Shown here piece after piece: positions 18,764 through 44,586 of a stretch of DNA of 64,000 nt. The notes under the pieces are model-generated. The model was not told where the DNA came from. It made no database searches and worked only from the letters and a program-made list of their open reading frames with translations. Source of the DNA: Halorubrum sp. 48-1-W (GTDB lineage: Archaea; Halobacteriota; Halobacteria; Halobacteriales; Haloferacaceae); assembly GCF_003287355.1 (NCBI RefSeq), contig NZ_QMIM01000003.1, positions 62,001 to 126,000 on the forward strand, given 5' to 3'. The translations under genes and the position numbers were made by a program. Position 1 is the first letter of the stretch; each line of letters begins with the position of its first letter.

Positions 18764-18779
18764 ATGGAACGGGGGCGTA

Positions 18780-18810
18780 GACCCCCCAGTTCCTCCGGGG
18801 GAAGACAAAC
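18780..18810 (-). promoter_or_regulatory. Hairpin leader 6 (TFB)
   Basis: The minus strand reads GTTTGTCTT, CCCCC, loop GGAGGAACT, GGGGGG, about 17 nt before the ATG at 18763. Confidence 0.6.
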
Positions 18811-18883
18811 TGAAGGCGAGGAATCTGGTCGTAAGCAACCGAAGAGCACGATTCACGGTCCTTCGAGTTCGCTGTGTTCGTGT

Positions 18884-23403: not shown

Positions 23404-23587
23404 GGCTAGTTCTGCGGATTTTGTGTTGCTTGACATTTTCTGGAAGTGGCGCGATTGCTGTCGCTGGCTGGAATGGTTCGACTGGGTGAACGAGACTAGA
23501 TAGAAGATGAGATTCGAGTGGGAGTGCCCAGAGGATGGCTGCTGGAGCAGCACCCAGGATGTTTGCTCCTCCTCCGATTCCCCTCAC
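23404..23587 (-). pseudogene. Possible gene truncated by TnpB element 2
   Basis: After hairpin leader 8 a GTG-started frame runs 61 codons (VRGIGGGANILGAAPAAILW...) into the element. If the element is removed, the frame could continue in phase through 21927-21759 and stop, for about 112 codons in all. The composition is not clearly haloarchaeal, so this is a weak proposal. Confidence 0.25.
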
Positions 23588-23609
23588 CCCCTTGGGGGAG
23601 CCAAAACAC
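23581..23609 (-). promoter_or_regulatory. Hairpin leader 8
   Basis: The minus strand reads GTTTTGGCT, CCCCC, AA, GGGGGTGAGGGG. It lies downstream of the 100-aa gene and upstream of the interrupted frame. Confidence 0.6.
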
Positions 23610-23632
23610 AGGTATTGGTGGCCAATCGCGAT

Positions 23633-23935
23633 TCACCGGACTTCATCGAGGTTGATGGTTTCCTCGGCACTGATCCAGCCGCCGACGTTCCCGCGCTCGA
23701 TGAACGCCCAGGTGCCGTCGATGAGCCTGACGAACCGCATCGTTCTTGCAAGGGGACCGGGTCCCGACGGGTACGGGTTGAACTCGTTCTTGTCGTCGGT
23801 GACGGGCCGGCTGGGATCTTCGCCGTCGACGATGTCAAGATGGAAGTCGACATCGTCGTCGCCGGTGAGTTCCTCGTTCGTGGGTGGTTGACTGTGACAG
23901 TTCGTCGGATCGTGGTCAGAGTTGTTGGTTGACAT
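23633..23935 (-). CDS. Small acidic protein, unknown
   Basis: 100 residues. The first 60 are polar and acidic and the last 35 (ARTMRFVRLIDGTWAFIERGNVGGWISAEETINLDEV) form a small beta-rich end. The gene follows the OB/zinc-ribbon gene by 55 nt on the same strand and is probably co-transcribed with it. No motif is recognised. Confidence 0.5.
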   Translation of the reverse strand: MSTNNSDHDPTNCHSQPPTNEELTGDDDVDFHLDIVDGEDPSRPVTDDKNEFNPYPSGPGPLARTMRFVRLIDGTWAFIERGNVGGWISAEETINLDEVR

Positions 23936-23990
23936 CGTTTTATTGGAATGGTGAGACTGGATGCACGGAGTGCAGTGCTGCCTCTATCGA

Positions 23991-25808
23991 CTAGCTGTCT
24001 TCGCGCCATCTCTGGCCGCAACTCACACAGGAGAGGAGTCTCGTCGGGGGTTCGTCGATGGACCGGAGTTGGACGAGGCGATATTGCGCTCGATCGTGAG
24101 CACACTCTGGACACCGGCACGTGGTCGTTGGAAGTCCAAGACCCGGCTTGTCGTCGCTCGCCACGGTAGTCTCCGAGGTGTCGGGGGTTGCGACGCCAGT
24201 GAGTTCGCTCTCGTTCGTGTCGTCCGCTGTCTCCGTCTCTGCCTCGCCCTCCTTGTCGTCATCAATGGCGGTTCCGAAAAGGTCGAGATCACGGATGAGC
24301 GCCCAGAGACGACGCTTACCCTGGGGAACGGGAGTGACGGGAACAGGCGTGGATTCGGGACGGCCCGTCGAGACGACCTCCCTGATGGCCGCGCCGATCT
24401 CGTCCCCTTCGGCGTCGACGTCGACGATTAGGGAGACCACGTTCGCTTGTTCGCGCCACCAAGTTGGGAGTGGTATCTTGCTATCGTCCTCGTCGAATAT
24501 CTCGGTGGCTTTGAGCCATTCGAGGGCGTCCAGCTTCTCGCCCTTCTCTTGGTCGAGTCTGTCGACGGGAGCATGCACGGGACGGGAGACTTCTTCGACG
24601 CCGGGAGCGCCCAAGGGGGGAATCGTACACGCGCTGTGCACTTGGAAGGGCTGTTCGATGCCCTGTTCGCGGTGACGCTTGGCGTATTTCTCCCAGTCTA
24701 CGTTCGGGATGTCGCCTCTGGGAGCGGGTCCGTCGCCACGCTCGAGAACTTCGATATGCGTCTCGGAGTCAGCGGCGAGAGTGGCCTGTCCCTGGTACTT
24801 CCCGACTTTCCCGACACGAATCCGAACGAGATCGCCTTCGTGGAGGATGACACCCTGTTGAGAGCGTGTCCACACGGTGAATTTGATGGTATCGCCGGCG
24901 TCGTCTTTGATGAGGCCGACCTGCTGTTGGCTCCCTGATTTGGGTTGCCAGAGGGTCGTGACTTCGCCCTGGATGTCAGCCTCGACGTTGTACTTCGAGG
25001 GGATAATCGGCACGGACGAGATAGGTTGGATGACGCTCGCCTCCTGATAGAGCTGGTCCAACGTGTTGGACTGAGCGGTGAAGACGTCCTGACCGCTCCG
25101 GACTTTGCGTGCGAGCAGGTGTCGGAGTACTTCGTCACCGGGGCCGGTGATAAGGTGGTCTTCGATTCGAGCAGCGGCCTCGCGGACAGCCTCAGCCTCG
25201 TTGTCGTCGATATCTTCGAATGCGTTGTTGCGGATGATTCCCTCCCCGAGGACGCGCTCGTTGCGCTTGGACTGGCGTTCCTCGCGCTCTTCGACGAGCT
25301 CCTCACGGCATCGTGTCTCGCGGTCAACGCCGACGACGTGGGCGGCTAACGCTTTCTCGCGCTGGCGTTTGCGTTCCTCGCGGAGTCCGTGCAGACGCTC
25401 CTGGGCTTCGAGTGGGAGTCCAGTGAGGTCCTCGTCGGCGAGGTCGATGGGATCGACGTCGCGACCTTCGGTGGTGCGGAGGCTCGCACCAATCCAGTAG
25501 GCGTCGAGTTCGTAGTTTCCATTTCCTTCGATTTCGAGGCCGAACTCGTCGTATTCGGGCTCACGACGGGCAGCCATCATAAGTTCGCCAGCGTTCTCGA
25601 GGCGGATGCCGAGGCAGTCGCTTTCGAGGTGCGGTGACTCGTAGAGGCCGCGCATGGTGAGTTCGTCGAAGCGGTCGTCTTGTTCGACGTCGCCGTTCGT
25701 GAGCCGGTCGTCTCCGTTGTGGTAGTACGTCATCTGGTAGTCACTCCATCTGGGTGAGGTCTGAGGCGGTCTGACCCAACAGCGGCGCTGCTGGCGACCC
25801 TCTCTCAC
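23991..25808 (-). CDS. OB-fold protein fused to a TFS/TFIIS-type zinc ribbon
   Basis: 605 residues from the GTG that follows hairpin leader 9; an ATG at 25733 (MTYYHNGDDRL) would give 580. Residues about 100-255 are helical and charged. About 265-365 is an OB-fold (NVEADIQGEVTTLWQPKSGSQQQVGLIKDDAGDTIKFTVWT...GKYQGQATLAADSETHIEVLERG) like those in archaeal RPA. About 562-600 is a complete zinc ribbon: CPECAHDRAQYRLVQ, the acidic turn SIDEPPTR, then CVSCGQRWRED, as in TFS and the C-terminus of TFIIS. That ribbon reaches into RNA polymerase and triggers RNA cleavage through the Asp-Glu pair, which is kept here. I know of no standard family with this combination. It may link single-strand binding to transcription on the element. 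Confidence 0.7.
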   Translation of the reverse strand: MREGRQQRRCWVRPPQTSPRWSDYQMTYYHNGDDRLTNGDVEQDDRFDELTMRGLYESPHLESDCLGIRLENAGELMMAARREPEYDEFGLEIEGNGNYELDAYWIGASLRTTEGRDVDPIDLADEDLTGLPLEAQERLHGLREERKRQREKALAAHVVGVDRETRCREELVEEREERQSKRNERVLGEGIIRNNAFEDIDDNEAEAVREAAARIEDHLITGPGDEVLRHLLARKVRSGQDVFTAQSNTLDQLYQEASVIQPISSVPIIPSKYNVEADIQGEVTTLWQPKSGSQQQVGLIKDDAGDTIKFTVWTRSQQGVILHEGDLVRIRVGKVGKYQGQATLAADSETHIEVLERGDGPAPRGDIPNVDWEKYAKRHREQGIEQPFQVHSACTIPPLGAPGVEEVSRPVHAPVDRLDQEKGEKLDALEWLKATEIFDEDDSKIPLPTWWREQANVVSLIVDVDAEGDEIGAAIREVVSTGRPESTPVPVTPVPQGKRRLWALIRDLDLFGTAIDDDKEGEAETETADDTNESELTGVATPDTSETTVASDDKPGLGLPTTTCRCPECAHDRAQYRLVQLRSIDEPPTRLLSCVSCGQRWREDS

Positions 25809-25810
25809 TC

Positions 25811-25838
25811 CCTCAACCCCATTTGGGGTCCAAAACTG
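25811..25838 (-). promoter_or_regulatory. Hairpin leader 9
   Basis: The minus strand reads CAGTTTTGGA, CCCC, AAAT, GGGGTTGAGGGA, directly before the GTG at 25808. Confidence 0.6.
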
Positions 25839-25887
25839 AGCGCGTGCTAGCCGATCGCGTCTCTACTGAGTAATCGCGAACATCGAG

Positions 25888-26943: not shown

Positions 26944-27247
26944 AGGATATTACACTGGTACTCGGAGGCCATTCCTTTCGAAGGGTGTGGACGCACCCAA
27001 TCAATTCCGGGAACGGCGAGGAATTTTATCGAGCAGCGATGTCTGGAGAAAGGACTTGCGTCAATACCCGGGGGGGTGCACCCGGTCAGTGTTCGCCCGC
27101 GTTCGTCAGGTAGTTGATAAGCGTGAACGGGCGGGATTCTGGGGGGATACGTCCGGAGAGAGAATTGTGCTACGAACTGGGTGGCCGGTAGCCGATACGA
27201 TTATATCTATACCCAGAGTAGGTAGGAGTGAGCCTTGAACGGCTCAA
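26944..27247. other. Gene-free stretch
   Basis: I see no convincing coding region or RNA. A G-run with flanking CCGG (27067-27086) and scattered short frames are present without ribosome sites. It probably holds upstream control DNA for the genes on each side. Confidence 0.4.
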
Positions 27248-27540
27248 CATGACAACTTAGGAAAGGCGACCATCGTCTTTCCACTTCCACACCTCCTGAG
27301 CGATAGCGCCGCCGGATAACGGTCTGCGAATGCGGACTGTAAGTCGATGCACACCGTGAGCGACTGTTTCACGCTGCGGGGCGCATGCAGCCTAGTCGGT
27401 TGCTCTGTTGGAGAGGGGCGGTGTTTTGGGGGTTTTCCGCAGAGAACCGCATTACTGCGCGGGGATCAGCGCGATACAGTTATACGCGGATCTACCGTCT
27501 ATGCGAGTGGAAAGCACGGTTGCTTTCCTAAGTTGTCATG
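27248..27540. repeat. Inverted-repeat-bounded 293-bp segment touching a start codon
   Basis: CATGACAACTTAGGAAAG (27248-27265) and its exact complement (27523-27540) are 18-bp perfect arms. Pairing resumes at CTTTCCACT, for about 37-38 bp in all. Each arm also contains a small GGAAAG...CTTTCC hairpin. The right arm ends in the ATG of the gene at 27538. A TATA-like AGTTATACGC (27478-27487) inside points toward that gene. It could be an invertible promoter or a MITE remnant. There is no gene inside. Confidence 0.65.
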
Positions 27541-29349
27541 AGTGGAAACACCGACAGTGTCCACCTCTCTGAGGCTGGTCACGAGAAGAACGGTAGAACC
27601 GAAATCGAATATGAGGACCCGACCCACATCGCCCGTCAATACGACGGGTGGTTCGACGATCTCCGCTCCCTCGATCGCGAGGAACGCCGTCGCCTGGACG
27701 GTAACGTGGAATCGCCGACTATCCGCAGGCACGCCGGCCTCGATGAGCCCGAGCGTCGCCCCACCGTGGACATCGTGGCGTCGAAACACTCACCCACCGA
27801 GTTCACAGCTGGCCCCGAACACGAGTTCGAGGCTGACGAGCGCGAGAGCGAGAGTACCGATGGTTGCTACGGCTGGTACGATGGCCAACCGATGGTCCCA
27901 TCGCGTAGTGACGAGCGGAGGGCTGAGATGAATGCGAAAGGCCGTCCGGCTGACGCGATATCTGAACCCGATGCTCTCTCGACTGGGGAGTACATCTACA
28001 TGGGCCACGACCGTCTGACCGACCCAACTGGCGATCAGTTGACTGGCACGGCCTCTGGTCTTGAAGAGTACATCCCGACGAGTGCGTCTGCTGTCCCCGT
28101 GCGGTTGGGACGGAAGCTCGAACCTGTCGAGACCCTCGACCCGGACACCCAACGGCTTCGTGAGCTGAAGATCATCCCCGAGGATGAACAGACGCCTCGC
28201 GACTCTGAAGGTGTCACGACGCCCGATCTGGAGGTGCTGCTTCCCTACGGCGAAGTCGCCTTCCTTCGGAGCGTCGTGCCGAACCCCGAGGACTACTCTC
28301 GGTCGTCGATAGCCGGAATCGAATTCCGCCTAGCGTTGGATGAAGAACTCAAGCGGAGCTCTCATGGTATCGACGAAAACGGTCACATGACGGGTGTGGC
28401 TGCGCTCTTGGATCAACACACAGACATCCTTGCTCGTTTCCGTACGGAACACGATCGCACGCTTCCTGAGCGACGGGATCGGAACCGGCGGAGCTTCGAA
28501 CAACGCTTCAAACAGCAGGTCTACGACCGAGCTGCTCCGTTGCGCGAGCTGGGTAAGGAAGATCCCGATCTTCGTGAAGAAATTCTCGCCGAGACACGCA
28601 GGCTGCTTGACGGGAATACACTGCACGAAATTCGGAAACCACCGGTCACTGTCGCTTCCCAACTTGCACGCCGTGTGCAGGCTGGGACGGACATCACGAC
28701 CGCGTTCCTTTCGCTTGTCGAAGAGGAGCAGACTGACCCGAGAAACGTCATCAGGATCAACGCGATTTTGAAGGCGAATCTCGCGTCCTCGAAAGGCTAT
28801 GTCACGACACAGGGCGTCGTGAAGAAAATCTACTATCCACCAGTTCCTAGCCTGAAGTTTGCTATGATCCTAAAGGATGGTAACCGCCGCGAGGATGAGG
28901 TCCGCGTTTCCGTCTGGAAGTCCAGCGAATACGAAGAGACTGCGTCAACGGCTGACCCCGGTGATGTCGATGGCGAAGTCCTAATCTCGAAGAAAACCTT
29001 CATCGAACCGAACGAGGGCGACACTGTGCGTCTGGTGGATTTCAAGCTTCCACGCGAGAGATCCAAGCAGACGTATCAAGGTCAACCGAAGCTCGATTCA
29101 CGATGGGCATCTGAAATCGAGATTGTCGAACGCGCTCCTGTCAAGTCATCCGATCAGACGTCGACGACTGCCAGACCGCAACATGTTGGTCGTTCGTTGA
29201 GTCCGTCTGATGATGGTGAACCAGTTCCCCGGAGTGAGGCTGCGAATTTCGACGGTGAAGTCTGTGTCTCCTGGCCCGAGCCAGTGATGATTGCTGACTT
29301 TATCGCCGATGAGCTCACCCGCATTGCCCAGACTGGTGATACTGCATGA
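27538..29349 (+). CDS. Large OB-fold protein, unknown role
   Basis: 603 residues. Residues 1-210 are polar and acidic. About 290-400 is helical and charged. About 415-535 contains an OB-like beta domain (GYVTTQGVVKKIYYPPVPSLKFAMILKDGNRREDEVRVSVW...GDTVRLVDFKLPRERSKQTYQGQPKLDSRWASEIEIVER). The same order (charged helices, then SGQD/AGTD-type hinge, then OB) is seen in the protein at 23991-25808, so the two may be distant relatives; this one lacks the zinc ribbon. It is likely a single-strand nucleic acid binder. It is a rare rightward gene in this half, and it starts inside an inverted repeat and has no leader hairpin. Confidence 0.6.
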   Translation: MSGNTDSVHLSEAGHEKNGRTEIEYEDPTHIARQYDGWFDDLRSLDREERRRLDGNVESPTIRRHAGLDEPERRPTVDIVASKHSPTEFTAGPEHEFEADERESESTDGCYGWYDGQPMVPSRSDERRAEMNAKGRPADAISEPDALSTGEYIYMGHDRLTDPTGDQLTGTASGLEEYIPTSASAVPVRLGRKLEPVETLDPDTQRLRELKIIPEDEQTPRDSEGVTTPDLEVLLPYGEVAFLRSVVPNPEDYSRSSIAGIEFRLALDEELKRSSHGIDENGHMTGVAALLDQHTDILARFRTEHDRTLPERRDRNRRSFEQRFKQQVYDRAAPLRELGKEDPDLREEILAETRRLLDGNTLHEIRKPPVTVASQLARRVQAGTDITTAFLSLVEEEQTDPRNVIRINAILKANLASSKGYVTTQGVVKKIYYPPVPSLKFAMILKDGNRREDEVRVSVWKSSEYEETASTADPGDVDGEVLISKKTFIEPNEGDTVRLVDFKLPRERSKQTYQGQPKLDSRWASEIEIVERAPVKSSDQTSTTARPQHVGRSLSPSDDGEPVPRSEAANFDGEVCVSWPEPVMIADFIADELTRIAQTGDTA

Positions 29350-29877
29350 GTACACGCGTAGTGCGTACTCCTCGGTATGGATTCGATGACGGAATACCGT
29401 CTCCGTACTGTCACCCCGAAATGTAACGAACCCTAACAACAACCCGAGTTCCCAGACGAACTCAGAAAACTAAATCTTCCTTTTGCCAAACCACAGAGCA
29501 AGTGGTCTTGCTGCCGGTCGCAACCTCACAATCATCCATGTTCGGAGTCCCGAAGCGACGTGGAATAATGTGGAGGATGTGACGAGTGTGACGGATGTGA
29601 CGCTACATTGAATGTGAACGGCAAATCGATTTATACTGCTACAGCGTTGGGTGCGGTACGGTTGCAAGCCGGGATGCTCAGATATCCCGCCTGCTGACGC
29701 GACCGGCCATAACACTCTCCAACAGCACGGAATTGGCTCGATTCTGCCCCCGTTGCGGCATTGACGTGGGCGGATTGAGCGGATTCTGTCTCCACCGATG
29801 ACACCGAAATCTCCATTGATAGCGAATGGCAGACGGCGATACACAGTTGATACTCACGTAACTGGTCGGCGATCGCG
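29350..29877. other. Gene-poor stretch
   Basis: I find no supported gene. One frame near 29576-29610 reads CGGCDECDGCDATLNVNGK, which recalls a TnpB zinc-finger end but is cut by stops on both sides. It may be an old element scar. Confidence 0.3.
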
Positions 29878-30342
29878 ATGACGAGTTGGCGCAGCGACGA
29901 CGAGACAGGTGACGATGAGCAGTGGTACGAAGTTCAGTTGTCGGTCCCGTGGGTCGTCCCCGGCGTGAAGAGCGTTCAGGATGCAATCAATATTGCAGTT
30001 GCACAAGTCGGTGAGCGGACGAAGTCAACAGAAGCACGGTCGTCGGAGATCCTTGTTCAAGATGTTGGCTGTCCCTCCTGTGGGTATGAAATGGAGGCGG
30101 CGCTCTGTACGACGGATTTTGCGCTGGTCGTACTGACTGTTATCGTCGAGATGTTGGCAGAGTCTCACGAGGAGAGCGAGCGTGTCGCGAAGCGCGAGTT
30201 GGGCGTCCGCATGAAGGACATCCCGCTCACGGTGTTGGAGACGCGACCGGTTGACGAAGCGGATGAAAAGCCAGAAATGAACTTCGCGGATCTTGGTCGC
30301 GACGTCCAATCCAGAAGCGAAACAAAGCAAACGCAAGGATAA
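29878..30342 (+). CDS. UPF0212 (DUF555) family protein
   Basis: 154 residues. The order of blocks fits the family: YEVQLSVPWVVPGVKSVQDAINIAVAQVGERT, the EILVQDVGCPSCGYEMEAAL knuckle (CPxCG), FALVVLTVIVEMLAE and ELGVRMKDIPLTVLET. UPF0212 proteins are conserved in methanogens and haloarchaea but lack a known function. The copy is longer at the C-terminus than usual and ends at the first origin-box-like repeat. A chromosomal homologue probably exists, so this would be an extra copy. Confidence 0.75.
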   Translation: MTSWRSDDETGDDEQWYEVQLSVPWVVPGVKSVQDAINIAVAQVGERTKSTEARSSEILVQDVGCPSCGYEMEAALCTTDFALVVLTVIVEMLAESHEESERVAKRELGVRMKDIPLTVLETRPVDEADEKPEMNFADLGRDVQSRSETKQTQG

Positions 30343-30353
30343 TTGCTACAAGA

Positions 30354-30850
30354 ACACCCCCCGGAGTGTGAATGGAATCCTTGATCGACACCCCTCGGTG
30401 TGAATGGGTGAATAGATGACGAATTGATATAACCACACCCCCACACCCCTCAGTGTGAATGGTGTACCACCGCTCATACCAGGTTTAATCTCTCGTGATC
30501 AACGTCAGTACGGTCACGACTGGTAGTCTCCCTTCGCTTCGCTCAGCCATCGGCTGCGGCGTAACCGCCTCGCCTTGTAGAACTACTCTACTTGGAGGAC
30601 TGTTTATGCCGGAATATAATAAAATTAACTACTAGTGCGGTAGCGGTGCGGTTGTCGGTGCAGTTGAACACACTGGACAGACAACACAGCAACAAATACC
30701 GCCCGGTGGTAAGGATATCTTTAGGTACAGATGGTCTAGAGGGCGTTCGCGACATTACTGCCGTGTGTTCTCTTTCCGGTTAGACTGAGGAACGAGTGTT
30801 AATTTAGTATCACTGTGTCCTATGGTGGACCATTCACACCGAGGGGTGTG
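30354..30850. other. Putative replication origin, left part
   Basis: Three boxes reading leftwards (GTGTGAATG cores at 30366, 30398 and 30453, each preceded by ACACCCC-type G/C strings) and one facing box (CATTCACAC at 30831, followed by CGAGGGGTGTG) enclose about 365 bp. That interval includes an AT-rich run at 30607-30631. Inverted origin recognition boxes with G-strings around an unwinding region, next to orc1/cdc6, are the haloarchaeal origin plan. The first two boxes are 32 bp apart. No gene is seen inside. Confidence 0.65.
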
Positions 30851-30857
30851 GGAGGTA

Positions 30858-32123
30858 TCACCCCATCAGCTCTTGGAGTTCTGGTGTCGAATTAATCAGC
30901 CCTCTCCGGGTGCTTTCTACTTCACCCTGTAACGAGTATGATCTGAACTTCCCGTCATCTCCGCCCTCTTTCTTCTTCGACTCGAGAACACCCGTTGTCA
31001 CGTGTTTATTTAACAGCTCGAGAGCACGATTGTATCCTTTCGGCTCAACACGGACATCTTTCGCGACTGTTTCGTACACTTGATGTATTTCTGAAGTTCG
31101 AAACCATTCTTTCTCCGGGTTGTTCCGATCAAGTCGAGTAAGTGCAAACAGGAGTAGCTTCCCTGATAATGGTGTTCCCTTGACCATTTCCATGAATAGT
31201 TCTACTTCAACGAGCTCGTCAGCTTCAGAGACGTGGTCCGCCGTGACGATCTCGCCACCCTCTTCGTCGGCAACCTCACCAGCGTTTCGTAACAACCGAA
31301 CTGCACGGCGGGCGTCACCGTGTTCATCGGCCGCGAGCTCGGCCACTTTCGAGATCACATCATCTTCCAGTACTTTTTGGTAAAATGCGTCACGGCGATT
31401 ATCCAGAATAGAGACAAGCTGATCCTCCTCGTAGGGTGTGAATGTCCAGTGCTTGGGCTGAAGCGTTGATTGAGCCCTTGAATCAATATCCCCTTTGAAT
31501 TCAATATCGTTTGAAATGCCGATCGTCACCACAGGGAAGTTAACATCATCTTTCGATTTGGCCCTCGACAGTGTGTAGAGAATCTCGTTGATTTCGCCGT
31601 GTTTATCGATCTCGTCGATTATAACAACAAGCCCACCCGGAAACTCTCTTTCAACAATAGGCCATAGTTTCTTGTCACGATAATGTTCCGCTGATAGACC
31701 CAGAGATGGGACGTCGACTGGATCGTTGGCTTTGGCATTCACTTGTTCTGCTATCTTACGAAAAGTAGAGGTGTATGTCGATATTGGATCTGGATTAACA
31801 TACGCCGTAACAATAGACCCATCAGTCCCTTCTGTCGTTGCCTCGAGGCGCTCACAGACGTGCCTAGCGACCAGTGTCTTCCCGGTCCCTGTCTCCCCCC
31901 ACATCACGATGTTGTCCGGAACATCGTCCGTCCTCATCTTACGGAGATTCTTCGCCAAGGATTTTATTTTATCATCACGTCCGACGATCCGATTCGCATC
32001 TGGGACATTATCTATTTCGAGCAGCCACGGTTTCTCAAAGATTTTTGATTTATATTCGTCGCTCTGATCGTCGACACTCAAAATCTCGTCAACAGTTGTC
32101 TGGGTTGTATTGTTATCCGTCAT
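30858..32123 (-). CDS. orc1/cdc6: Orc1/Cdc6 replication initiator
   Basis: 421 residues from the ATG at 32123; an ATG at 32144 lies within a partial origin box and is also possible. Walker A is GETGTGKT, Walker B is VVIIDEID, and sensor 1 follows in VVTIGISND. A lid region with DEHGDARRAVRLLRNAGEVA (sensor 2) and a C-terminal winged helix follow. Orc1/Cdc6 binds origin boxes and loads MCM. Arrays of CATTCACAC-GGGG boxes on both sides are its likely targets. Haloarchaeal plasmids usually carry such origin-specific pairs. Confidence 0.9.
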   Translation of the reverse strand: MTDNNTTQTTVDEILSVDDQSDEYKSKIFEKPWLLEIDNVPDANRIVGRDDKIKSLAKNLRKMRTDDVPDNIVMWGETGTGKTLVARHVCERLEATTEGTDGSIVTAYVNPDPISTYTSTFRKIAEQVNAKANDPVDVPSLGLSAEHYRDKKLWPIVEREFPGGLVVIIDEIDKHGEINEILYTLSRAKSKDDVNFPVVTIGISNDIEFKGDIDSRAQSTLQPKHWTFTPYEEDQLVSILDNRRDAFYQKVLEDDVISKVAELAADEHGDARRAVRLLRNAGEVADEEGGEIVTADHVSEADELVEVELFMEMVKGTPLSGKLLLFALTRLDRNNPEKEWFRTSEIHQVYETVAKDVRVEPKGYNRALELLNKHVTTGVLESKKKEGGDDGKFRSYSLQGEVESTRRGLINSTPELQELMG

Positions 32124-32141
32124 ATTGAGGACATCCGACCC

Positions 32142-32403
32142 CATTCACATAAAGGTAACCGACCCTCGATGTGATAGGCCAATCCATATTCACGTTTTAG
32201 AAGAACTGAGAGTACGGTTCCGTATGTATATAAATTCCGGAAAGTAAAGGATCCCATTCACACTCCGGGGGGCAAACTGGGGATTCCATTCACACCGAGG
32301 GGGGTCAAATCGAGGACCCCATTCACACTCCGGGGTCAAACTGGATATCCCATTCACACCGAGGGGGGTCAAATCGAGGACCCCATTCACACTGAGGGGT
32401 GCT
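32142..32403. repeat. Putative origin boxes upstream of orc1/cdc6
   Basis: Five direct repeats with core CATTCACAC start at 32255, 32287, 32320, 32351 and 32384, each followed by CCGAGGGG or TCCGGGG. Spacing is 31-33 bp, about three helical turns, so all face the same side of the helix. A partial box without the G-string is at 32142. AT-rich DNA flanks both ends (32200-32250 and 32410-32440). Confidence 0.75.
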
Positions 32404-32454
32404 GGATAGCGATTAAAGAGAAGAGAAATTTTAGTGTAGAGGATATCATCGACG

Positions 32455-33135
32455 TTAGTCTCGGAATTCCTCATCGAGGAGGTTGCGCTCGGCGGGATCG
32501 CCGTCGTACGTGAACGAGACGAGTTCGTGGAAGTCTTGATTCGTCCGATCCTCAAGATACACGCTGTAGTCCGTGTCCGCGTCGGGTTCGTCATCTTCGC
32601 CGTAGCCGAGGACGAGATACTCGGTCTCCGTCTCGTCGACGACGAAGTGAGACCGATCGACAAACCACTTATTCTCGACTCTGTACCAGCCCTCGTCCTT
32701 ATTGATATGGAAGATGCGGCCGTACTCTGGGTTTCCACCGTTTTTCGAGACTCTGATGGGATACATCGTCGGAACGGTGTACTCGTCGGAACTCTTCCAG
32801 TCACCGATATCGACGGCCAGATCGAAGGTAAGGTCGACAAGCCAGACAGGGCCGTGATATTCGGTGTCATCCTCGTATTCGTTAATGATACGGTAGAAAT
32901 GGTACGGGTCGGAAACCGAGGCGGTGAGCGGGAAGACAGGCTCATCCGAGTCAGGCGTCGGGCTCGAACTCTCCCCACCATCATTCGTCCCGCCACTAGC
33001 GCTGGAGCTGGAGCAGCCGGCGATCGCGGTGATTGCTCCAGCGCCGGCGAGCGCACCGGTCTCCTGGAGGAATGACCGGCGACCGAGAGTACTGTTCGAG
33101 TGCTGTGCGTCCGCAGAGGTATTGTTGGAGTTCAT
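32455..33135 (-). CDS. Tat lipoprotein
   Basis: 226 residues. GRRSFLQETGALAGAGAITAIAGC is a twin-arginine signal with lipobox, followed by a Ser/Gly/Asp linker. The mature domain (VFPLTASVSDPYHFYRIINEYEDDTEYHGPVWLVDLTFDLAVDIGDWKSSDEYTVPTMYPIRV) looks beta-rich. No family is recognised. It would sit on the outer face of the membrane. It belongs to the leader-hairpin gene set, with hairpin leader 10 and a 7-codon frame upstream. Confidence 0.65.
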   Translation of the reverse strand: MNSNNTSADAQHSNSTLGRRSFLQETGALAGAGAITAIAGCSSSSASGGTNDGGESSSPTPDSDEPVFPLTASVSDPYHFYRIINEYEDDTEYHGPVWLVDLTFDLAVDIGDWKSSDEYTVPTMYPIRVSKNGGNPEYGRIFHINKDEGWYRVENKWFVDRSHFVVDETETEYLVLGYGEDDEPDADTDYSVYLEDRTNQDFHELVSFTYDGDPAERNLLDEEFRD

Positions 33136-33169
33136 GATTGGAATGAACGAAATCGACCGAGAACAGCGG

Positions 33170-33193
33170 TTACGCCGCCTCTCCGATCTCCAT
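33170..33193 (-). CDS. 7-codon leader ORF
   Basis: MEIGEAA with GAGGAG just before the ATG and TAA at 33170, placed directly after hairpin leader 10 and 35 nt before the lipoprotein start. It may be a leader peptide or chance. Confidence 0.2.
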   Translation of the reverse strand: MEIGEAA

Positions 33194-33220
33194 CACTCCT
33201 CTTCAGGGCCCAATACTCAC
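33194..33220 (-). promoter_or_regulatory. Hairpin leader 10 (lipoprotein)
   Basis: The minus strand reads GTGAGTATTGG, GCCC, TGAAGAGGAGTG. The GTGAGTATTGG part is nearly identical to leader 14; the hairpin arms are weak in this copy. Confidence 0.45.
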
Positions 33221-33407
33221 ACGATGCCGAGGAAGGAGCTTGGTGGGTGTTCATAGTCAGAACTAGCAGTGAAACGCAGGCATAACTCTTCGCGAACCAC
33301 ATTCAATGTAGCCGCCACATTTCACGGTGTGCGGCGGGTGCTCTGACCGCAATTGGTGACGTTGACGGTATCTCCAGACTGAGATGGAGTCGTATGTAAG
33401 GCTGAAA

Positions 33408-33454
33408 TCCTACGTTACAGTACGAACGTAGGTGCCGTTTGTTGTTGCGTAGGA
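33408..33454. repeat. Dispersed inverted-repeat element, copy 2
   Basis: TCCTACGTTAC (33408-33418) and GTTGCGTAGGA (33444-33454) enclose 25 bp. A nested AACGTAGG also pairs with CCTACGTT. Confidence 0.6.
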
Positions 33455-33857
33455 CAAGAACGGAGCGCCGGAACTGACACCCGTCTAAAACTACTGGCGG
33501 ATGGTCGAATGGGTACAGAAAGTGACGATGCGAGAGCCAGGTGCGTCGTCAGACGTGGGATTGGCAATACTGGCCGACGTCCAAGGACCACGCTCTCAAG
33601 CGTATGGTCGGGTCGGCTGTGACTCTCGACGGGGACTCTGCGATGAGTTCGGTGGCGTTGCCAGATTGCTTTCCAGTGTTGATATGAGTGGACACGGGCA
33701 GGACTCGTGCCAAGACTCCGGGAACGGAACCGATGGAAACAGAGTCGAACGGTCGGTGAGGGCTAGCGATTGATCGTCGTGAGGCCCGCGATCTTCAACG
33801 AAGGCAGTGATAAGCCGACCTCATCGATGGGGCGAGCACTAATAGATGGTCGAATCG

Positions 33858-33887
33858 CCCCCTCACCTCCTTCGGGGGGCAAAAACT
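33858..33887 (-). promoter_or_regulatory. Hairpin leader 11 (orphan)
   Basis: The minus strand reads AGTTTTTG, CCCCCC, GAA, GGAGGTGAGGGGG. It points into a stretch without a supported gene. Confidence 0.5.
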
Positions 33888-34083
33888 GGAGAAAAGAAGC
33901 GCCAGAGGGAACCAGAACTGGGTAGAAGCTAGTCAAGAGTCAAGAGCCGATGTAACAGCATACCGCTTGAGACCAGCGAAACCGCAGTCGTGCCGGAGGC
34001 ACTCGGCAGATTTTCGATGTACAGTGACGCCGTGCCGGAGGGCGACGTTCACCCTAGCCGGACGGGAATATCCCGCGCCGCCC

Positions 34084-35691
34084 TTACTGGGCGGGAGCTG
34101 GCTCCGACTCGATGTCGCTGCCGGCAGGCGCGAGGTCCTCGGCTGTCGCCTGGACTGCCGCTTCGATGGCCGAGGTATCGCTGTTGTAGACGCTGAGAAC
34201 GGCGTCCGCTGCATCCGATTCACCGCTCTCGAGCGCGCCGAGTCGCGCCCGGGTCGCGTTAATGGTTTCAGCCATCCACGAGTCGCGAATCTCCCCGCCC
34301 ACCGTCGAGATGTGCTCGGGCTGGATGGAGACGTTCACGCCGGCGTCCGTCTCGTACTGGTGGACCTTGCCGACCACTGCGACGAACGACGGGGTCTCGG
34401 CCGAGCGGAGCACAGCCATCGGCTCCTGCTGGTACTGCCCCGCGTAGATGTTCACAACTTCACCACCTGCCATGACGCGCCCCTTCCAGAACTCGGAGTC
34501 ATCGCCGACATCCGAGGTTTCGATGAGAGCACCGACCACGAGCACGCGGTTGACCGCCTCACCCGAGGGGAGTAGCGTGAACTTTGGCGCACGATCGTCG
34601 CCCTCGTCCTCTGGGCGGGTGAACGAGTGGGTCGCCATGTTCAGCTCTTCAGCGAACACGCGCTTGGCGGGTTGGCGCTGCGTGGCGACGTCTTCGAGGG
34701 CTGCGTTACTGAGGCCGGCATTCTCTCCCGAGTATGAGATCTCCTCGACCTCGTCGACGAGGAAGTACTCGCCGATGACCGGGCCCCGGATGTCGTATGT
34801 CCTGCCGATGAGCAACTCACGGAGCTCCGTTTCGACGACGCTGGGATCGAGGGCCTCGGAAGCCATCTCTATGGCGTCATCGAGACTCACTCCGGAGACT
34901 GCCTCAGTCATCTCAGCGTTGAACAGCGTGCGGACAGCACGGTTGCCATCGTCAAGGATGGCCTTCAGGCGAAGATCAAACACGCCATCGACATCACCGT
35001 GTTCGGAGCAGCGACCGTTCTGAACGACACGCGTGCAGTCCTTGCTGGGGCAGCGCTTGATGAGACCCGAACCCTCATCGAGGCCAACGAGCGTCCCAGT
35101 GGCACGAATCGACCCGTCCGTGGGTTCGACGGCCTCCTCGGACTCCGTGACGCTACTCGCCTTGTTGAGCGAGATGGAGTACTTGCTCTCGTACTCGTTC
35201 GTGACCGCCGAGGTGATGTCGTAGGTGACACCCTCCTCGAGGGTCGGGAGCGAGTCGGTGTTCTTCGCCCAGACAACGAACTTCATTTGGGCCGTTTCGT
35301 CGGCGATGAGGCCGACCTGCCGCATGGAATCGGAGTGCGGCTCCCAGAGGTCGACGATCTGCGCCCGGACGTCCACCCATTCCTCGTCACCGAGGTCCGA
35401 GATATCCTCGAGAGCTATCCGGTCGAAGCCTCGGGAACTGCTGTTACCGGTGCCGACGAAGCCGGCAACCGCCTTGACCCCGTCCGAGAGGTCGCTGGAT
35501 TCGAGGTCGTGGTCGTCGATGACGTTACGAACTGTCGTCTCGACCGCCGTCTCGATCGGAACGGAGAACTCCTGCATGGCCGCAATCCGCTCTTCAATGC
35601 TTGACACGGGGATCTCCACGCCCATCTCGCCGAACTCGCCGCTGATGTCTTCCGCGCGCTGTGCTACGTCTGTGGTAATGTTTGTACACAT
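34084..35691 (-). CDS. rpa: RPA single-strand binding protein fused to RPAP
   Basis: 535 residues from the ATG at 35691. Residues about 100-185 are an OB-fold (WVDVRAQIVDLWEPHSDSMRQVGLIADETAQMKFVVWAKN). About 205-325 is the zinc-finger OB module with CPSKDCTRVVQNGRCSEHG. From about 335 the chain continues straight into an RPAP (COG3390) domain (AKRVFAEELNMATHSFTRPEDEG...PKFTLLPSGEAVNRVLVVGALIETSDVGDDSEFWKGRVM...VNIYAGQYQQEPMAVL). In haloarchaea these are normally two adjacent genes, as at 58794-60594 in this same window. RPA coats single-stranded DNA in replication and repair. The fusion fixes a 1:1 ratio. Confidence 0.85.
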   Translation of the reverse strand: MCTNITTDVAQRAEDISGEFGEMGVEIPVSSIEERIAAMQEFSVPIETAVETTVRNVIDDHDLESSDLSDGVKAVAGFVGTGNSSSRGFDRIALEDISDLGDEEWVDVRAQIVDLWEPHSDSMRQVGLIADETAQMKFVVWAKNTDSLPTLEEGVTYDITSAVTNEYESKYSISLNKASSVTESEEAVEPTDGSIRATGTLVGLDEGSGLIKRCPSKDCTRVVQNGRCSEHGDVDGVFDLRLKAILDDGNRAVRTLFNAEMTEAVSGVSLDDAIEMASEALDPSVVETELRELLIGRTYDIRGPVIGEYFLVDEVEEISYSGENAGLSNAALEDVATQRQPAKRVFAEELNMATHSFTRPEDEGDDRAPKFTLLPSGEAVNRVLVVGALIETSDVGDDSEFWKGRVMAGGEVVNIYAGQYQQEPMAVLRSAETPSFVAVVGKVHQYETDAGVNVSIQPEHISTVGGEIRDSWMAETINATRARLGALESGESDAADAVLSVYNSDTSAIEAAVQATAEDLAPAGSDIESEPAPAQ

Positions 35692-35773
35692 GTTTGTCAC
35701 TCTCTGAGGGGGTTTCTGAGAAACGGCTTCGGGACTGGGCACTCGACCGTCGCGCCCCACCCCACCCGCTCTC

Positions 35774-35802
35774 CCTCACCCCCTTTGGGGGCTAATACTC
35801 AC
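35774..35802 (-). promoter_or_regulatory. Hairpin leader 12 (RPA-RPAP)
   Basis: The minus strand reads GTGAGTATTAG, CCCCC, AAA, GGGGGTGAGGGAG, about 85 nt before the ATG at 35691. Confidence 0.6.
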
Positions 35803-35946
35803 GGGAGACGCAAGCAGGATAACCGGAAAGCGACGATTGGGACATCCCGACCGCCGCCGTATGGACTGATTCGCTCCGAGGTTGAACCCCGGATCTCGGC
35901 GAGAATGAACGCAGTCACCGCTGCGCCCCTCTCTGACTTCCCTCAC
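35776..35946 (-). CDS. Doubtful 56-codon frame between two leaders
   Basis: A GTG inside leader 13 opens VREVREGRSGDCVHSRRDPGF and ends at the TGA that forms part of the GGGGGTGAGGG arm of leader 12. It is Arg-rich, unlike haloarchaeal proteins. It may be a chance frame or a translated leader. Confidence 0.2.
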   Translation of the reverse strand: MREVREGRSGDCVHSRRDPGFNLGANQSIRRRSGCPNRRFPVILLASPVSISPQRG

Positions 35947-35970
35947 CCCTCTTTGGGGACCAAAACTCAC
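35941..35970 (-). promoter_or_regulatory. Hairpin leader 13
   Basis: The minus strand reads GTGAGTTTTGGT, CCCC, AAAGA, GGGGTGAGGGAAG. The 10 bases before it (CGCAGC and neighbours) also match leader 14, so the two are recent duplicates. Confidence 0.6.
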
Positions 35971-36073
35971 GCTGCGAGGAGCTGGGGAAACCGAGAGAAC
36001 AGAGGCACTTTGCCCGTCCGAGCCGTCTAGTCGGAAAGCAGTACGTACAGAATCGCGTTCACATCCTCGACGA

Positions 36074-36406
36074 CTAGAAGGTGTAGTCGTCGCGATCGCG
36101 AGCTTCGGCACACGCCTCGCAGAGGATGTCGAATGGCGGCCACCCGGTCAGTCCGTCGGCATCTTCGAGGAGCGTGGTCGGGACCAGGCCCGACATCCCA
36201 CACCCACCGTCACACGACGCCCAGGAATGGCTGACCGCGGCGAACGTCTCGCCATGTGGGTCATGGTCGGGCTTCCTGAACTCGGGGCCATCGCCGGTCT
36301 TGAACTGAACGCTCACGGGTTCTCGCGGCTCAATTTTGGCTTCGGTCGCTGATCTGCTGAAATCGCTGTCGATACGCCGCTCATCGGGGTTGATGTTGTC
36401 GTACAT
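36074..36406 (-). CDS. Small Cys-rich protein
   Basis: 110 residues from the ATG at 36406, which follows GGGGGTGAGGGAAGTGAG of leader 14. WASCDGGCGMSGLVPTTLLEDADG and DILCEACAEARDRDDYTF carry four Cys in two CxxxC/CxxC pairs, which may bind zinc. The N-terminal 60 residues are polar. No family is recognised. Downstream are leaders 13 and 12 and the RPA-RPAP gene. Confidence 0.55.
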   Translation of the reverse strand: MYDNINPDERRIDSDFSRSATEAKIEPREPVSVQFKTGDGPEFRKPDHDPHGETFAAVSHSWASCDGGCGMSGLVPTTLLEDADGLTGWPPFDILCEACAEARDRDDYTF

Positions 36407-36414
36407 CTCACTTC

Positions 36415-36444
36415 CCTCACCCCCATTTGGGGTCCAATACTCAC
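36415..36444 (-). promoter_or_regulatory. Hairpin leader 14
   Basis: The minus strand reads GTGAGTATTGGA, CCCC, AAAT, GGGGGTGAGGGAAG, 8 nt before the ATG at 36406. The GGTGAGG arm resembles a haloarchaeal ribosome site, showing how the hairpin could mask it. Confidence 0.65.
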
Positions 36445-36519
36445 GCTGCGAGGAGCGGGGGTACACACGGAACGAACGGCGCGATCAGCCCGCCGGCCGA
36501 ACAGTTCGGAACAGCGCCG

Positions 36520-38736
36520 TTACCTGAAGAGACGCGAGAGGAAGCCCTGTTTCTTGCGTCGTTCGCGTTCTTCGGCCTTGATACGTTCGTTCGCCTCTTC
36601 GTACTCCTGGAGGACGGCGTCGATTCCTGTGAGTGTCTCTTTTGCTGTCTGTGCGTCTTCGCGCCGAATCTTCGGACGCATAATCTGCTTGACTCGCTTC
36701 ACGGGGTCGTCTGGGAGCTCGGCAGCGTCTCTCGAGAGCTCCCCGAGGTGCTTGAGTTGCGTACGATACTGAGCGCGTTCCTCCATCAGCTCATCCATCG
36801 TTTCGAGGTAGACCCTGAGGACAAACCGGAGGCGTTCGTTCTCCTCGCCCTGCTCGCTGAGTTCGGCGAGTTCCCTTGATTGCCGGTCGAGTTTCCGAGC
36901 GAGAATTCGCTGGTCTTCACGAGCGAGACGCATTGCCTGGTCGGTCGCGGAGTAGCCCCGGATCTCACCGATGGTCCAATCCGCTGGGTACTTCTCGTCA
37001 TCATTGAGCGTCGGGTCGGTGCGTTCCCATCCCGGCCCGGCGTCGCGAGCGGACGCTTCCATCATTCGCTGGGTGCTCTCGTCGAGGTCGGAATCGGTGT
37101 CCACCCCACGCGGGTCAGCGGGTTCGCGACCATCCGTCGTCGGCGGCGCGGCCCCTGGCCCGGCCGTTCTCTGCCCTGAGACAGGACTATCATCAGCACT
37201 TGTCCCAGCTGTCGTGGAACCTTTGGGTGTGGTCGTCGACGAAGCGGCGTCATGACTATGGGCCCGGGCGTGGCTGTTCCCCTGTTCCGGTTCCTGCCTA
37301 GTTGCGTAGGCGTCAGCGACTGCTGCCGGGTCGCCATCTTTGTCGGGGTTGACGGGAATGAACTCTTCGTCGTCCTCGAGGTTAGGATGGACATCGGTAT
37401 TGACGGCGGGGGATCCCCCGTTCGCCCCTTCGCTGTGCAGTGGGTTTGTCTCGTCCGTAGCGGCGTTGACAGTCTCGGACTGCTCGGAATCGGAGCCAAT
37501 CTTGAAATCCATCGGCGGGAGATCGTGGTCGTCCGCCCCCGAGGATGACGATGAATCCGAGCCGTTGGAATCGGCCTTCGAGAACTTCACACCATCTTTG
37601 CTCGGGACTTCGTAGTAATCGTCCACCCGGAGGAGTGCACGGGCGAGCGTGACATCGCCGTAGGTTGCGCCACTCGCGTAGTGACGTCGCTCCCACTTAT
37701 CGCGGTGCAGGCCGGATTCCTCGAACAGTGCGTTCATCCGTTTGGGGTCTTTCGCCGTCCAGAACGCGAGGTTGTGAGCGAGCGCCATATCTGCCTCGGA
37801 CTGGCTTGGATAATCGGCGTCATGGGACCCCCACATCGAGGCGTCGCCTTCGTAGAGACGCTGCCTGCGGTCACCTCCCTGAGAGTCGAACATCCGCGTG
37901 AGTATCTCTTGATCTGATAGGTCCACACCGGGTCCCGCGAGGTCGGCGAACGTACTCGGACACTTGGAGGGAAGGTACTTCGTCGCGACCCGCTCGAGGG
38001 CCTCCTTGATTGCGGGGTCGTGGATGCTCTTGAAGGCGTCTCCATAACGCTCAATGAGCGAACTCGCACTCTGCTGCGCCCGGGCCTCGATGCCGCGGCG
38101 ACCATCCGCGTCACCTCTGCTTTCTGAATCTTCAACTTCTGTCCCTCTGGTGAGAGTCGTCTGTCCATCTGGTCTCACGCCATCCTCGATGAACTCGCGG
38201 TGAACGGTCTCTATCTCATCCTGACGCTTCCGGATTTCTGTGGGGGTTCCCTCGACGTGAGCACCAGTCGTAGCGAAGTACCGTCCGGAGTCATACATCT
38301 CAATAGGGCCCTTCCGGTTTCCGCCGGGCGGAAGTTTCCCACTTGCGAGGATATGCACACCAGTCCCGGAAGCGGAAACCTCCGTATATGAGTCGACCTT
38401 GTCGATGATTGTTTGCGTCCATTCCTTGATTTCACCAGTATCAGAATCACGACAGTTATCGAGGTCGATACCGACGATGGTGACGTCGTCACTGAAGACG
38501 AACCCCAGACCATCGGCGTTCACGCGAGAGTCGTTGAGTGAATCCCAGGCGGTGTCGAAGTCTCGGCGATGTTCGGGGTTGGTAACGTCGGCATTAATGT
38601 CACCACTCGTCCGATATGGTTTAGTCGGAATCTTGGTAGATTTTCCGTCACGCATACCTTCACGCCAGCAAATCCAATTCCTGATAGTGCGGATTTTGTC
38701 CGGGATCCCGTCTTTAGCTACGTCTACTTTTGGCAT
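36520..38736 (-). CDS. NrS-1-like primase-polymerase (PrimPol)
   Basis: 738 residues. NWICWREGMRDGKSTKIPTKP opens the domain. GIDLDNCRD gives catalytic D91 and D93, SASGTGVHI carries a His at 128, and EMYDSGRYFATTG near 146-158 completes the PrimPol set seen in NrS-1 phage-type enzymes. Residues about 320-385 (MALAHNLAFWTAKDPKRMNALFEESGLHRDKWERRHYASGATYGDVTLARAL) match the small helical domain that follows it in that family. The rest is a long acidic linker and a C-terminal coiled coil (about 625-730) ending in basic residues. These enzymes make primers and extend them. Together with Orc1, PCNA and RPA it makes the element largely self-sufficient in replication. No helicase domain is fused. 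Confidence 0.8.
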   Translation of the reverse strand: MPKVDVAKDGIPDKIRTIRNWICWREGMRDGKSTKIPTKPYRTSGDINADVTNPEHRRDFDTAWDSLNDSRVNADGLGFVFSDDVTIVGIDLDNCRDSDTGEIKEWTQTIIDKVDSYTEVSASGTGVHILASGKLPPGGNRKGPIEMYDSGRYFATTGAHVEGTPTEIRKRQDEIETVHREFIEDGVRPDGQTTLTRGTEVEDSESRGDADGRRGIEARAQQSASSLIERYGDAFKSIHDPAIKEALERVATKYLPSKCPSTFADLAGPGVDLSDQEILTRMFDSQGGDRRQRLYEGDASMWGSHDADYPSQSEADMALAHNLAFWTAKDPKRMNALFEESGLHRDKWERRHYASGATYGDVTLARALLRVDDYYEVPSKDGVKFSKADSNGSDSSSSSGADDHDLPPMDFKIGSDSEQSETVNAATDETNPLHSEGANGGSPAVNTDVHPNLEDDEEFIPVNPDKDGDPAAVADAYATRQEPEQGNSHARAHSHDAASSTTTPKGSTTAGTSADDSPVSGQRTAGPGAAPPTTDGREPADPRGVDTDSDLDESTQRMMEASARDAGPGWERTDPTLNDDEKYPADWTIGEIRGYSATDQAMRLAREDQRILARKLDRQSRELAELSEQGEENERLRFVLRVYLETMDELMEERAQYRTQLKHLGELSRDAAELPDDPVKRVKQIMRPKIRREDAQTAKETLTGIDAVLQEYEEANERIKAEERERRKKQGFLSRLFR

Positions 38737-38756
38737 GGATATTACCTATTGTCAGT

Positions 38757-38793
38757 CCGCCTCGTCGCCTCGTTTCGTCGGGCGAGACAAACC
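38757..38793 (-). promoter_or_regulatory. Hairpin leader 15 (PrimPol), covarying arms
   Basis: The minus strand reads GGTTTGTCTCGCC, loop CGACGAAACGA, GGCGACGAGGCGG, 21 nt before the start at 38736. The arms are CTCGCC/GGCGA instead of CCCC/GGGG yet still pair, and the GTTTGTC box is kept. Confidence 0.55.
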
Positions 38794-39258
38794 GATTTCG
38801 TCGATTTTCCCCGACTCAGGGCGAAAACCAACAGACAGCACACGAATTGTGAGGGAATGATCCCCCTCCCGTATCCAATACTATGTAAAATCACTCCGGA
38901 GGTGTCGAATGGAGCGATCTGGTTGGTTGATAGCCTGTCTAAAGCGCTTTGCGCACGTGCGCTAAGTGCTGACGCTGAAGGGGTGTTAGAAAAGGCGGAT
39001 TCTGACGATAGAGCTCCCATACTGCCGATGCGCGTCACACGCGAATTTTGCGCGAAGTTGCGAGCATTCGAAACCCCCGCAAACCCGGTGATTTCGCTTT
39101 GACCCTCGAAATACCGTTTTAGAGCCTCTAAAGTGCCTTGAACGCGCGCGCTAAGTGCTGACACTGAATAGGTGTTAGAAAAGGCGGATTTGCGGGGTAC
39201 AGCGTCCGTACTACTCGTGCGCGCCGTGGGCGGACTTTTTTCGAATGCATGGATGGGA
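38794..39258. repeat. Gene-free stretch with 189-bp-spaced direct repeat
   Basis: A 43-bp block starting GCGCTAAGTGCTGAC and ending GTTAGAAAAGGCGGATT occurs at 38959-39001 and again at 39148-39190 with four differences. Similar but less conserved DNA lies to both sides. On the minus strand each copy can be read SAFSNTxSxSALSARxQ, but no start or ribosome site supports a gene. The stretch separates PrimPol from the VirD4-like gene and could be a second initiation or control region. Confidence 0.5.
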
Positions 39259-43533: not shown

Positions 43534-43783
43534 TGGCCCACCATCTTCTTGCGAGTAGACACACCCCTCCGCCGACACTGTACAACGGTCGAGTGCGTCC
43601 CAACCCATCGGGCGATTCGGTTAGATAGGCACACTATTGGACTGTTTGTTGTCATTTTGGATTGTGTTGTGTCGTTTGATTCAGCCGCTACTGGATTGTG
43701 ACCTAATTCTCCCCACAATTGGAAATTCGGACACGAGCGGCGAGCGGGGAAGGCGTCCGTACCGTCTAGCCCGTCTAGACGGT

Positions 43784-44128
43784 TTACGGGGTGGCGATCC
43801 ACTCCAAGACAGCCACGAAGATCGTGACGCCGAAGTAGAAAATCGTCATGCTCATTCCACCAATCATGAGCCACATCCCGTTCTCAGCGCGGTCGGAGTT
43901 TTTCCGGGCAGTGAACCACACGATCGCGCCAAAGGCGAGAGCCACGAGGCCAGCGTACTTCAGAACGAGCAGGACGGTGTCGTATAGATTGGTCATGATA
44001 CCCTCGAAATCGGCTGGGGGCCCACTCTGCGCGGCGACTGGATCCACGAAAACGACTAGGACGAGGATTCCCAAGACGAGGGATGTGCTGTGCTTTCTCA
44101 GGAGTTTCTTTGTTCGGAGGGTGCTCAT
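43784..44128 (-). CDS. VirB2/TrbC pilin-like membrane protein
   Basis: 114 residues from the ATG at 44128. A signal-like helix (TSLVLGILVLVVFVDPVAAQ) with a possible cleavage after AQ is followed by two transmembrane helices (TVLLVLKYAGLVALAFGAIVWFTA and GMWLMIGGMSMTIFYFGVTIFVAVLEWIA). Size and layout match VirB2/TrbC pilins of type IV secretion systems. It lies first upstream of the VirD4-like gene on the same strand. Confidence 0.6.
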   Translation of the reverse strand: MSTLRTKKLLRKHSTSLVLGILVLVVFVDPVAAQSGPPADFEGIMTNLYDTVLLVLKYAGLVALAFGAIVWFTARKNSDRAENGMWLMIGGMSMTIFYFGVTIFVAVLEWIATP

Positions 44129-44331
44129 GTTACCCACCGGGAAGAGGTGAGAATCTATTATAAAGAAGAGTAGACTACATCTAATGTGGCAGATGTAGAA
44201 CGGCGGTTTCAGGGTGTCAACGGGCGGGATTACGGGGGTTTTCACCGGAACAGTTATGTGGTTACCAATAGCACACCTAATTGTTGGACTTGGAACACCC
44301 TCCAGTGCCTCCTTGTCCATAGGTGATTGCA

Positions 44332-44586
44332 GTGCCAACAAACAGCTCCAAGCCCACCTCGAGTGATAACACCGACCGCGACCCCGAGACGACGATCAAC
44401 ATCTGCCTCCACCGGGATACGCATACGCGGTTGACCGCCTACAAGAACGACAACCCCCTGATAGAGAAGTCGTACGACGAAGCGATCAACGAAATCCTTG
44501 AAAAAATCGACTTCCCACAGGCTGAAATGATCGAGAACAAGTACCTTCCGTCAATGTCCGACGCACATCCTAGCGACTCAGACTGA
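44332..44586 (+). CDS. Small antitoxin-like/RHH-type protein
   Basis: 84 residues from a GTG with GGTGA 5 nt upstream. TTINICLHRDTHTRLTAYKNDNPLIEKSYDEAINEILEKIDF has the strand-helix-helix pattern of ribbon-helix-helix proteins and of the short haloarchaeal antitoxin-like families. It is divergent from the pilin-like gene with about 200 bp between, so it may regulate the transfer genes. Confidence 0.5.
   Translation: MPTNSSKPTSSDNTDRDPETTINICLHRDTHTRLTAYKNDNPLIEKSYDEAINEILEKIDFPQAEMIENKYLPSMSDAHPSDSD

Follow-up and report, generated by a model that had tools for sequence, protein, structure and literature searches.

The window analysed here, a stretch of 64,000 nucleotides, corresponds to positions 62001-126000 of a 204,459-bp contig, which is not closed, no overlap having been found between its ends. 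It carries an orc1/cdc6 initiator gene with boxes on both sides, and the features of this locus are as follows:

30334..32454, no strand: whole initiator-origin cassette, delimited by what the Halorientalis and Halobellus plasmids have replaced
30359..30375, minus strand: downstream box 4 (outermost), CCATTCACACTCCGGGG; the equivalent in relatives lies at about +484
30391..30407, minus strand: downstream box 3, CCATTCACACCGAGGGG; box 4 lies 32 bp away, against 34 bp in the majority of relatives
30446..30462, minus strand: downstream box 2, CCATTCACACTGAGGGG, then TGTGGGGGTG; sequence conserved in the alignment
30603..30642, no strand: candidate DNA-unwinding element, 70% A+T, with the conserved block GTAGTTAtcTTTATTAtac at 30611-30632
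30830..30846, plus strand: downstream box 1, CCATTCACACCGAGGGG; core toward the AT-rich block, just past the orc1 stop codon
30858..32144, minus strand: orc1/cdc6 initiator gene, intact, with AAA+, Cdc6 lid and winged helix
32139..32174, minus strand: putative orc1 promoter with the TATA-like CCTTTATG some 30 bp ahead of the annotated start
32254..32270, plus strand: upstream array box, CCATTCACACTCCGGGG (box search)
32286..32302, plus strand: upstream array box, CCATTCACACCGAGGGG (box search)
32319..32335, plus strand: upstream array box, CCATTCACACTCCGGGG (box search)
32350..32366, plus strand: upstream array box, CCATTCACACCGAGGGG (box search)
32383..32399, plus strand: upstream array box, CCATTCACACTGAGGGG (box search)

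Elsewhere, the window encodes a PCNA-like protein (16071-17087), a TFB (17585-18856), a protein with a C-terminal TFIIS zinc ribbon (23991-25808) and a SelO protein adenylyltransferase (8723-10117), the last located between TnpB/IS605-type genes (5914-7260 and 10647-11996).

The Orc1 protein comprises 428 amino acids from the first ATG and 421 from the start annotated in orthologues, which lies seven codons later (32123 in the window). Pfam matches were obtained to AAA, Cdc6_lid (2.2e-20) and Cdc6_C (6.4e-13); an intact Orc1/Cdc6 of more than 300 amino acids, with AAA+ and winged-helix domains, hence lies directly beside the boxes. Orc1 proteins of Sulfolobus and Aeropyrum bind origin recognition boxes (ORBs) via winged-helix and AAA+ contacts. 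The nearest solved structures are Aeropyrum ORC1 (2v1u, 9.9e-43) and Sulfolobus Orc1-1/Orc1-3 (2qby), initiators homologous to the window Orc1 (E ~1e-42); the window Orc1 clade itself has no solved structure.

A first-pass annotation had described nine box cores with G-strings around orc1/cdc6, and our sequence search of the window recovered all of them, with minus-strand cores at 30366, 30398 and 30453 and plus-strand cores at 30831, 32255, 32287, 32320, 32351 and 32384. Each core is followed by two to three bases and then a G-run. The five boxes on the right, described as 31-33 bp apart, are spaced by 32, 33, 31 and 33 bp, and the two on the left by the 32 bp originally given; orc1 is encoded on the minus strand, so that the "left" boxes correspond to the downstream side of the gene and the "right" array to the upstream side. 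Two degenerate boxes in the promoter (32139-32155 and 32158-32174) had been missed, and a tenth core within orc1 (31436) as well as one at 58618 have no G-string. All nine copies of the full box CCATTCACACNNNGGGG in the 3.58-Mb genome fall at 30359-32399 of the window, in the intergenic flanks of orc1, and a reversed control box gave 0 matches in the same genome search. The exact 9-mer core has just seven further copies in the genome. Searching the window permissively for the 9-mer with one mismatch yielded 19 matches against 13.1 +/- 3.9 expected, which alone is not beyond chance; we consider the box array real because the full CCATTCACACNNNGGGG is exclusive to the cassette and the control had no matches.

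The downstream side has a conserved geometry. Among relatives outside the Haloplanus/Halorarius subgroup, 21 of 22 carry four downstream boxes at +15.9, +345, +450 and +484 (SD 0.4, 1.9, 3.1 and 3.0 bp, respectively), boxes 2-4 facing inward and opposite to box 1 (21/22), and the spacing between boxes 3 and 4 is 34 bp in 18/21. The corresponding window boxes lie at +19, +396, +451 and +483, and every relative has box 1 between +14 and +19. The alignment revealed a conserved AT-rich block (TTTATTAT / GTAGTTAtcTTTATTAtac) between boxes 1 and 2, its A+T exceeding that of the rest of the region. The suggestion that the left boxes face each other across an AT-rich region was borne out: the richest 40 bp reach 70% A+T compared with 42% for the window, and boxes 2-4 on one side and box 1 on the other flank this element (30603-30642) with their cores pointing to it and their G-strings outward. 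Inward ORBs with outward G-strings on either side of an AT-rich region are likewise found in Haloarcula hispanica oriC1 (PMC3936714), although haloarchaeal oriC1 uses another box (CCACTCGAAACGAAGGGG at L005, the oriC1-type locus of the present genome) and an Orc1 of another clade. Because of its rigid inward boxes and AT-rich block, in a layout like that of H. hispanica oriC1, the downstream intergenic region (30359-30846) is the best origin candidate.

On the other side of the gene, the TATA-like element CCTTTATG/CCTATATG sits about 30 bp upstream of the start annotated in orthologues, a distance that fits a leaderless haloarchaeal transcript. A near-invariant promoter element (ATCACACcGaGGGTgg..aACCTaTATGTGAATGGGG) was present in 27/27 loci, and within it degenerate boxes overlap the TATA; in the window, the overlapping box is CCCCATTCACAT (from 32139), and the degenerate ATCACATCGAGGG precedes it. 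Owing to this overlap, autorepression of orc1 via its promoter boxes appears likely. The same overlap would suit a reading in which the boxes are mere operator sites for orc1 autoregulation, or else relics of a dormant origin, and relic CATTCACAC boxes do occur by foreign Orc1 genes, with the chromosomal locus L055 keeping three boxes without an Orc1. However, autoregulation alone leaves the near-invariant inward boxes and the AT-rich block past the stop codon unexplained, orc1 is intact, and two circular plasmids have no Orc1 other than that of the cassette. We regard this reading as highly improbable.

Upstream, most relatives have two boxes whose G-strings converge; the phased tandem array is confined to Haloplanus/Halorarius-type members. 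It comprises five boxes in the window and in Haloplanus HW8-1, seven in H. rubicundus pCBA1112-02 (two with one mismatch) and four in Halorarius; the chromosomally located copy L068 has two upstream boxes. The array spacings of 31-34 bp amount to about three helical turns and fit binding to the same face of the DNA, and the alternation of TCC and CGA units suggests that the array spread by duplication of about 64 bp. Helical phasing, as originally proposed for the boxes, applies to the upstream array, but it is lineage-specific, appears to stem partly from the ~64-bp duplication and does not define the family. As a family-wide rule it was rejected, the spacing between boxes 2 and 3 being 53-55, 101-104 or 113 bp among members.

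In haloarchaea, origins are mostly found upstream of orc1 (PMC3528665), and the five boxes adjoin a 70% A+T stretch at ~32410, so the phased array might itself be the origin, with the downstream boxes serving titration or regulation, an arrangement known from H. hispanica oriC2. Yet the upstream boxes vary in number, orientation and spacing (one to three in most members, four to seven in tandem in Haloplanus/Halorarius), and the window has no inward-facing pair around an AT-rich block on this side, whereas the downstream side is nearly invariant. We consider an upstream origin unlikely. The H. hispanica oriC2-cdc6E/oriC2D locus resembles the window in having boxes on both sides of one orc1, one side being a dense array (PMC3936714); oriC2 is held in check by the oriC2D array, probably through titration of Cdc6E (PMC3936714). 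At that locus the array is downstream of the gene and the origin upstream; in the window, the side with inverted boxes and AT-rich block is downstream and the array upstream. If the downstream region is the origin, as we prefer, a dense array of the same box lies on the side of orc1 away from it.

The first-pass annotation had also raised the possibility of a private initiator-origin pair. Other Orc1 genes, both in this genome and on related plasmids, carry different G-string boxes (L numbers designate loci):

L002: box TTACAGTCGGAACGAGGGG
L004, L072, L086: box TTTCATATCGCACACGGGG
L005 (oriC1-type locus of the window genome): box CCACTCGAAACGAAGGGG
L071, L073: box TTCACTCTGGACGAGGGG
L080, L082, L089, L074: box TTACAACTCGAAAACGGGG
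L042: box TAACGTCGGAACCGGTGGGG
Halobellus plasmid: box TAACGTCGGAACC

No box was found at the Orc1 genes L003 and L006-L009 of the window genome. In a maximum-likelihood tree, box type tracked Orc1 clade, and the window clade, all of whose members have CATTCACAC, formed a long branch with support of 100/100. The genome-exclusive box, its presence at every orthologue, the other boxes of other clades and the joint replacement described below all support such a pairing.

The Orc1 family is sharply bounded, with no match between 60 and 80% identity. Orthologues 82-100% identical occur on ~25 plasmids in different haloarchaeal families, and further loci are present in 17 genomes besides these plasmid orthologues. 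Haloplanus is the source of the relatives that belong to the 200-kb plasmid type of the window. All full-length orthologues examined are flanked by the same box as in the window, and 63/392 genomes of the order contain it. The pNG600 Orc1 is 84% identical to that of the window, with the same boxes at nearly the same positions, and the only Orc1/Cdc6 on the circular plasmids pCBA1112-02 (147 kb) and Halorarius unnamed3 (167.5 kb) is of the window type. No relatives were found on viral contigs. None of the 392 genomes had box counts fitting two full cassettes, but prevalence is too low for "one cassette per genome" to serve as evidence of incompatibility, and this argument was dropped. Two loci lie on chromosome-sized contigs: L068 (3.15 Mb) has an intact Orc1 and an extra box pair 2.9 kb off, and L055 (2.96 Mb) has three boxes and the backbone gene described below without an Orc1. 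In Halobacterium salinarum (L038 and L041), pNRC200 encodes a truncated Orc1 annotated as hypothetical (NC_002608.1 159228-159731), consisting of the C-terminal 168 amino acids with the winged helix, and the homologous locus L038 retains three downstream CATTCACAC boxes; L038/L041 looks like a decayed copy of a window-type replicator.

Two plasmids, one from Halorientalis marina (NZ_CP095490.1) and one from Halobellus sp. DFY28 (NZ_CP134948.1), have the gene order of the window and are 97% (23404-25865), 90% (27081-30333) and 98% (32455-46000) identical to it. Blastn collinearity ends at 30333 and restarts at 32455 (L042, L043), and in place of 30334-32454 both plasmids hold a 465-aa Orc1 of another clade with its own G-string box; on the Halobellus plasmid, no Orc1 was found besides this replacement. 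Because the backbones differ exactly at 30334-32454, initiator and boxes were exchanged as one unit, and the alignments indicate that gene and boxes are swapped jointly between plasmid backbones.

A second backbone is marked by a conserved convergent gene of ~108-124 amino acids that ends ~80 bp past box 4 in most window-type plasmids. In this backbone, the distal CATTCACAC box or the 34-bp pair also occurs beside foreign Orc1 types (L089, L003-like, L086 and L081-like groups). Of 27 loci examined that have the box but lack a complete Orc1 gene of the window type, 15 have a different type of Orc1 nearby and 15 have the backbone gene. At L071-L074 and L102-L111, distal CATTCACAC boxes by other-type Orc1 genes adjoin the same ~108-aa backbone gene. 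At L102, L105 and L108, box 4 immediately adjoins the flank of box 3, as if a deletion had run from one box to the other. We read the distal boxes as probable scars of repeated cassette exchange, with retained function possible. A more tentative idea, which we hold to be doubtful, is that origin boxes act as junctions for exchanging whole cassettes, the leftover CATTCACAC box or 34-bp pair being a shared landing site or a retained cross-plasmid regulatory site.

Among four plasmids or contigs, the GC-skew extreme lay near the cassette in just two, in one of these not significantly, and GC and AT skew gave no consistent switch at the cassette. The backbone relatives Salinirubellus, Haloplanus GDY1, Haloglomus and Salinigranum have no Orc1 at the cassette position and carry Orc1 elsewhere, implying that the backbone can do without the cassette; moreover, H. 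hispanica oriC4 and oriC5 have a correct structure yet are dormant (PMC3528665). The backbone might replicate from elsewhere, with the Orc1 cassette auxiliary or dormant, and the most notable site, near the 38.8-39.2 kb segment named as an alternative in the first-pass annotation, is a 523-bp gap at 38737-39258, between a large gene and an NrS-1-polymerase-like gene, of near-constant length in all backbones. It contains a divergent 119-nt direct repeat and a conserved palindrome, TTGCGCACGTGCGCTAAGT. As an unannotated gene it was rejected, since its substitutions are without codon periodicity, though one frame is open. An origin in the gap would agree with the retention of its length in backbones 66-70% identical that have no Orc1 at the cassette locus, with the lack of codon-position periodicity and the two repeat copies with their palindrome, with folding as single-stranded DNA better than that of shuffles (z -2.6) and with the NrS-1 polymerase HBD domain of the neighbouring gene. 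On the other hand, 38737-39258 contains no Orc1 boxes, at least one Orc1 was present on 10/10 plasmid records tested, and the gap could equally be a transfer origin, a partition site or a regulatory element. Replication from elsewhere with a dispensable cassette seems to us less likely still than an upstream origin, although the gap might serve the plasmid as a second origin.

We propose, with a probability of about three in four for the model as a whole, that the cassette is the self-contained replicator of a large haloarchaeal plasmid, with an origin downstream of orc1 and regulatory boxes upstream. The model is based on the exclusivity and conservation of the box, the box geometry, the match between box type and Orc1 clade, and the exchange of cassettes, and from these we infer binding, unwinding, autoregulation, titration and origin activity. 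Orc1/Cdc6 would recognise its own variant origin recognition box, CCATTCACAC-NNN-GGGG, and initiation would most likely take place downstream of the gene (30359-30846), at the inward boxes around the AT-rich block, which Orc1 would open before the MCM helicase is loaded. Through the degenerate boxes over the TATA, Orc1 would probably repress its own gene, and the upstream array would probably take up excess Orc1 and restrain initiation, in the manner of the ORB-rich region beside Haloarcula hispanica oriC2.

Haloarchaeal origins adjacent to Orc1/Cdc6 genes and with G-string ORBs have been described, including a predicted origin on Haloarcula marismortui pNG600 (Wu et al. 2012, PMC3528665). As in the window, those origins have adjacent G-string boxes specific to the Orc1 family, sometimes downstream or two-sided (PMC3528665). 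Plasmid pNG600 carries a member of the window family, and the origin predicted on it (PMC3528665) may be this cassette. Downstream or two-sided ORB sets, Orc1-ORB linkage, titrating arrays and origins that move with initiator genes are already in the literature (PMC3528665, PMC3936714, PMC4441112). What our analysis adds is the rigid map of the family with its fixed geometry, the promoter-embedded boxes, the lineage-specific phased array and the unusually clean evidence of cassette exchange in natural swaps.

Our analysis defines a widespread plasmid replicon family with a fixed map of its putative origin, which comprises ~25 plasmids including pNG600, plus the truncated remnant on pNRC200. 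If exchange at box junctions is true, plasmids would switch their replication type, and perhaps their incompatibility type, while keeping the backbone. The natural swap, in which near-identical backbones differ in the cassette alone, offers a direct way to test initiator specificity, incompatibility and origin exchange.
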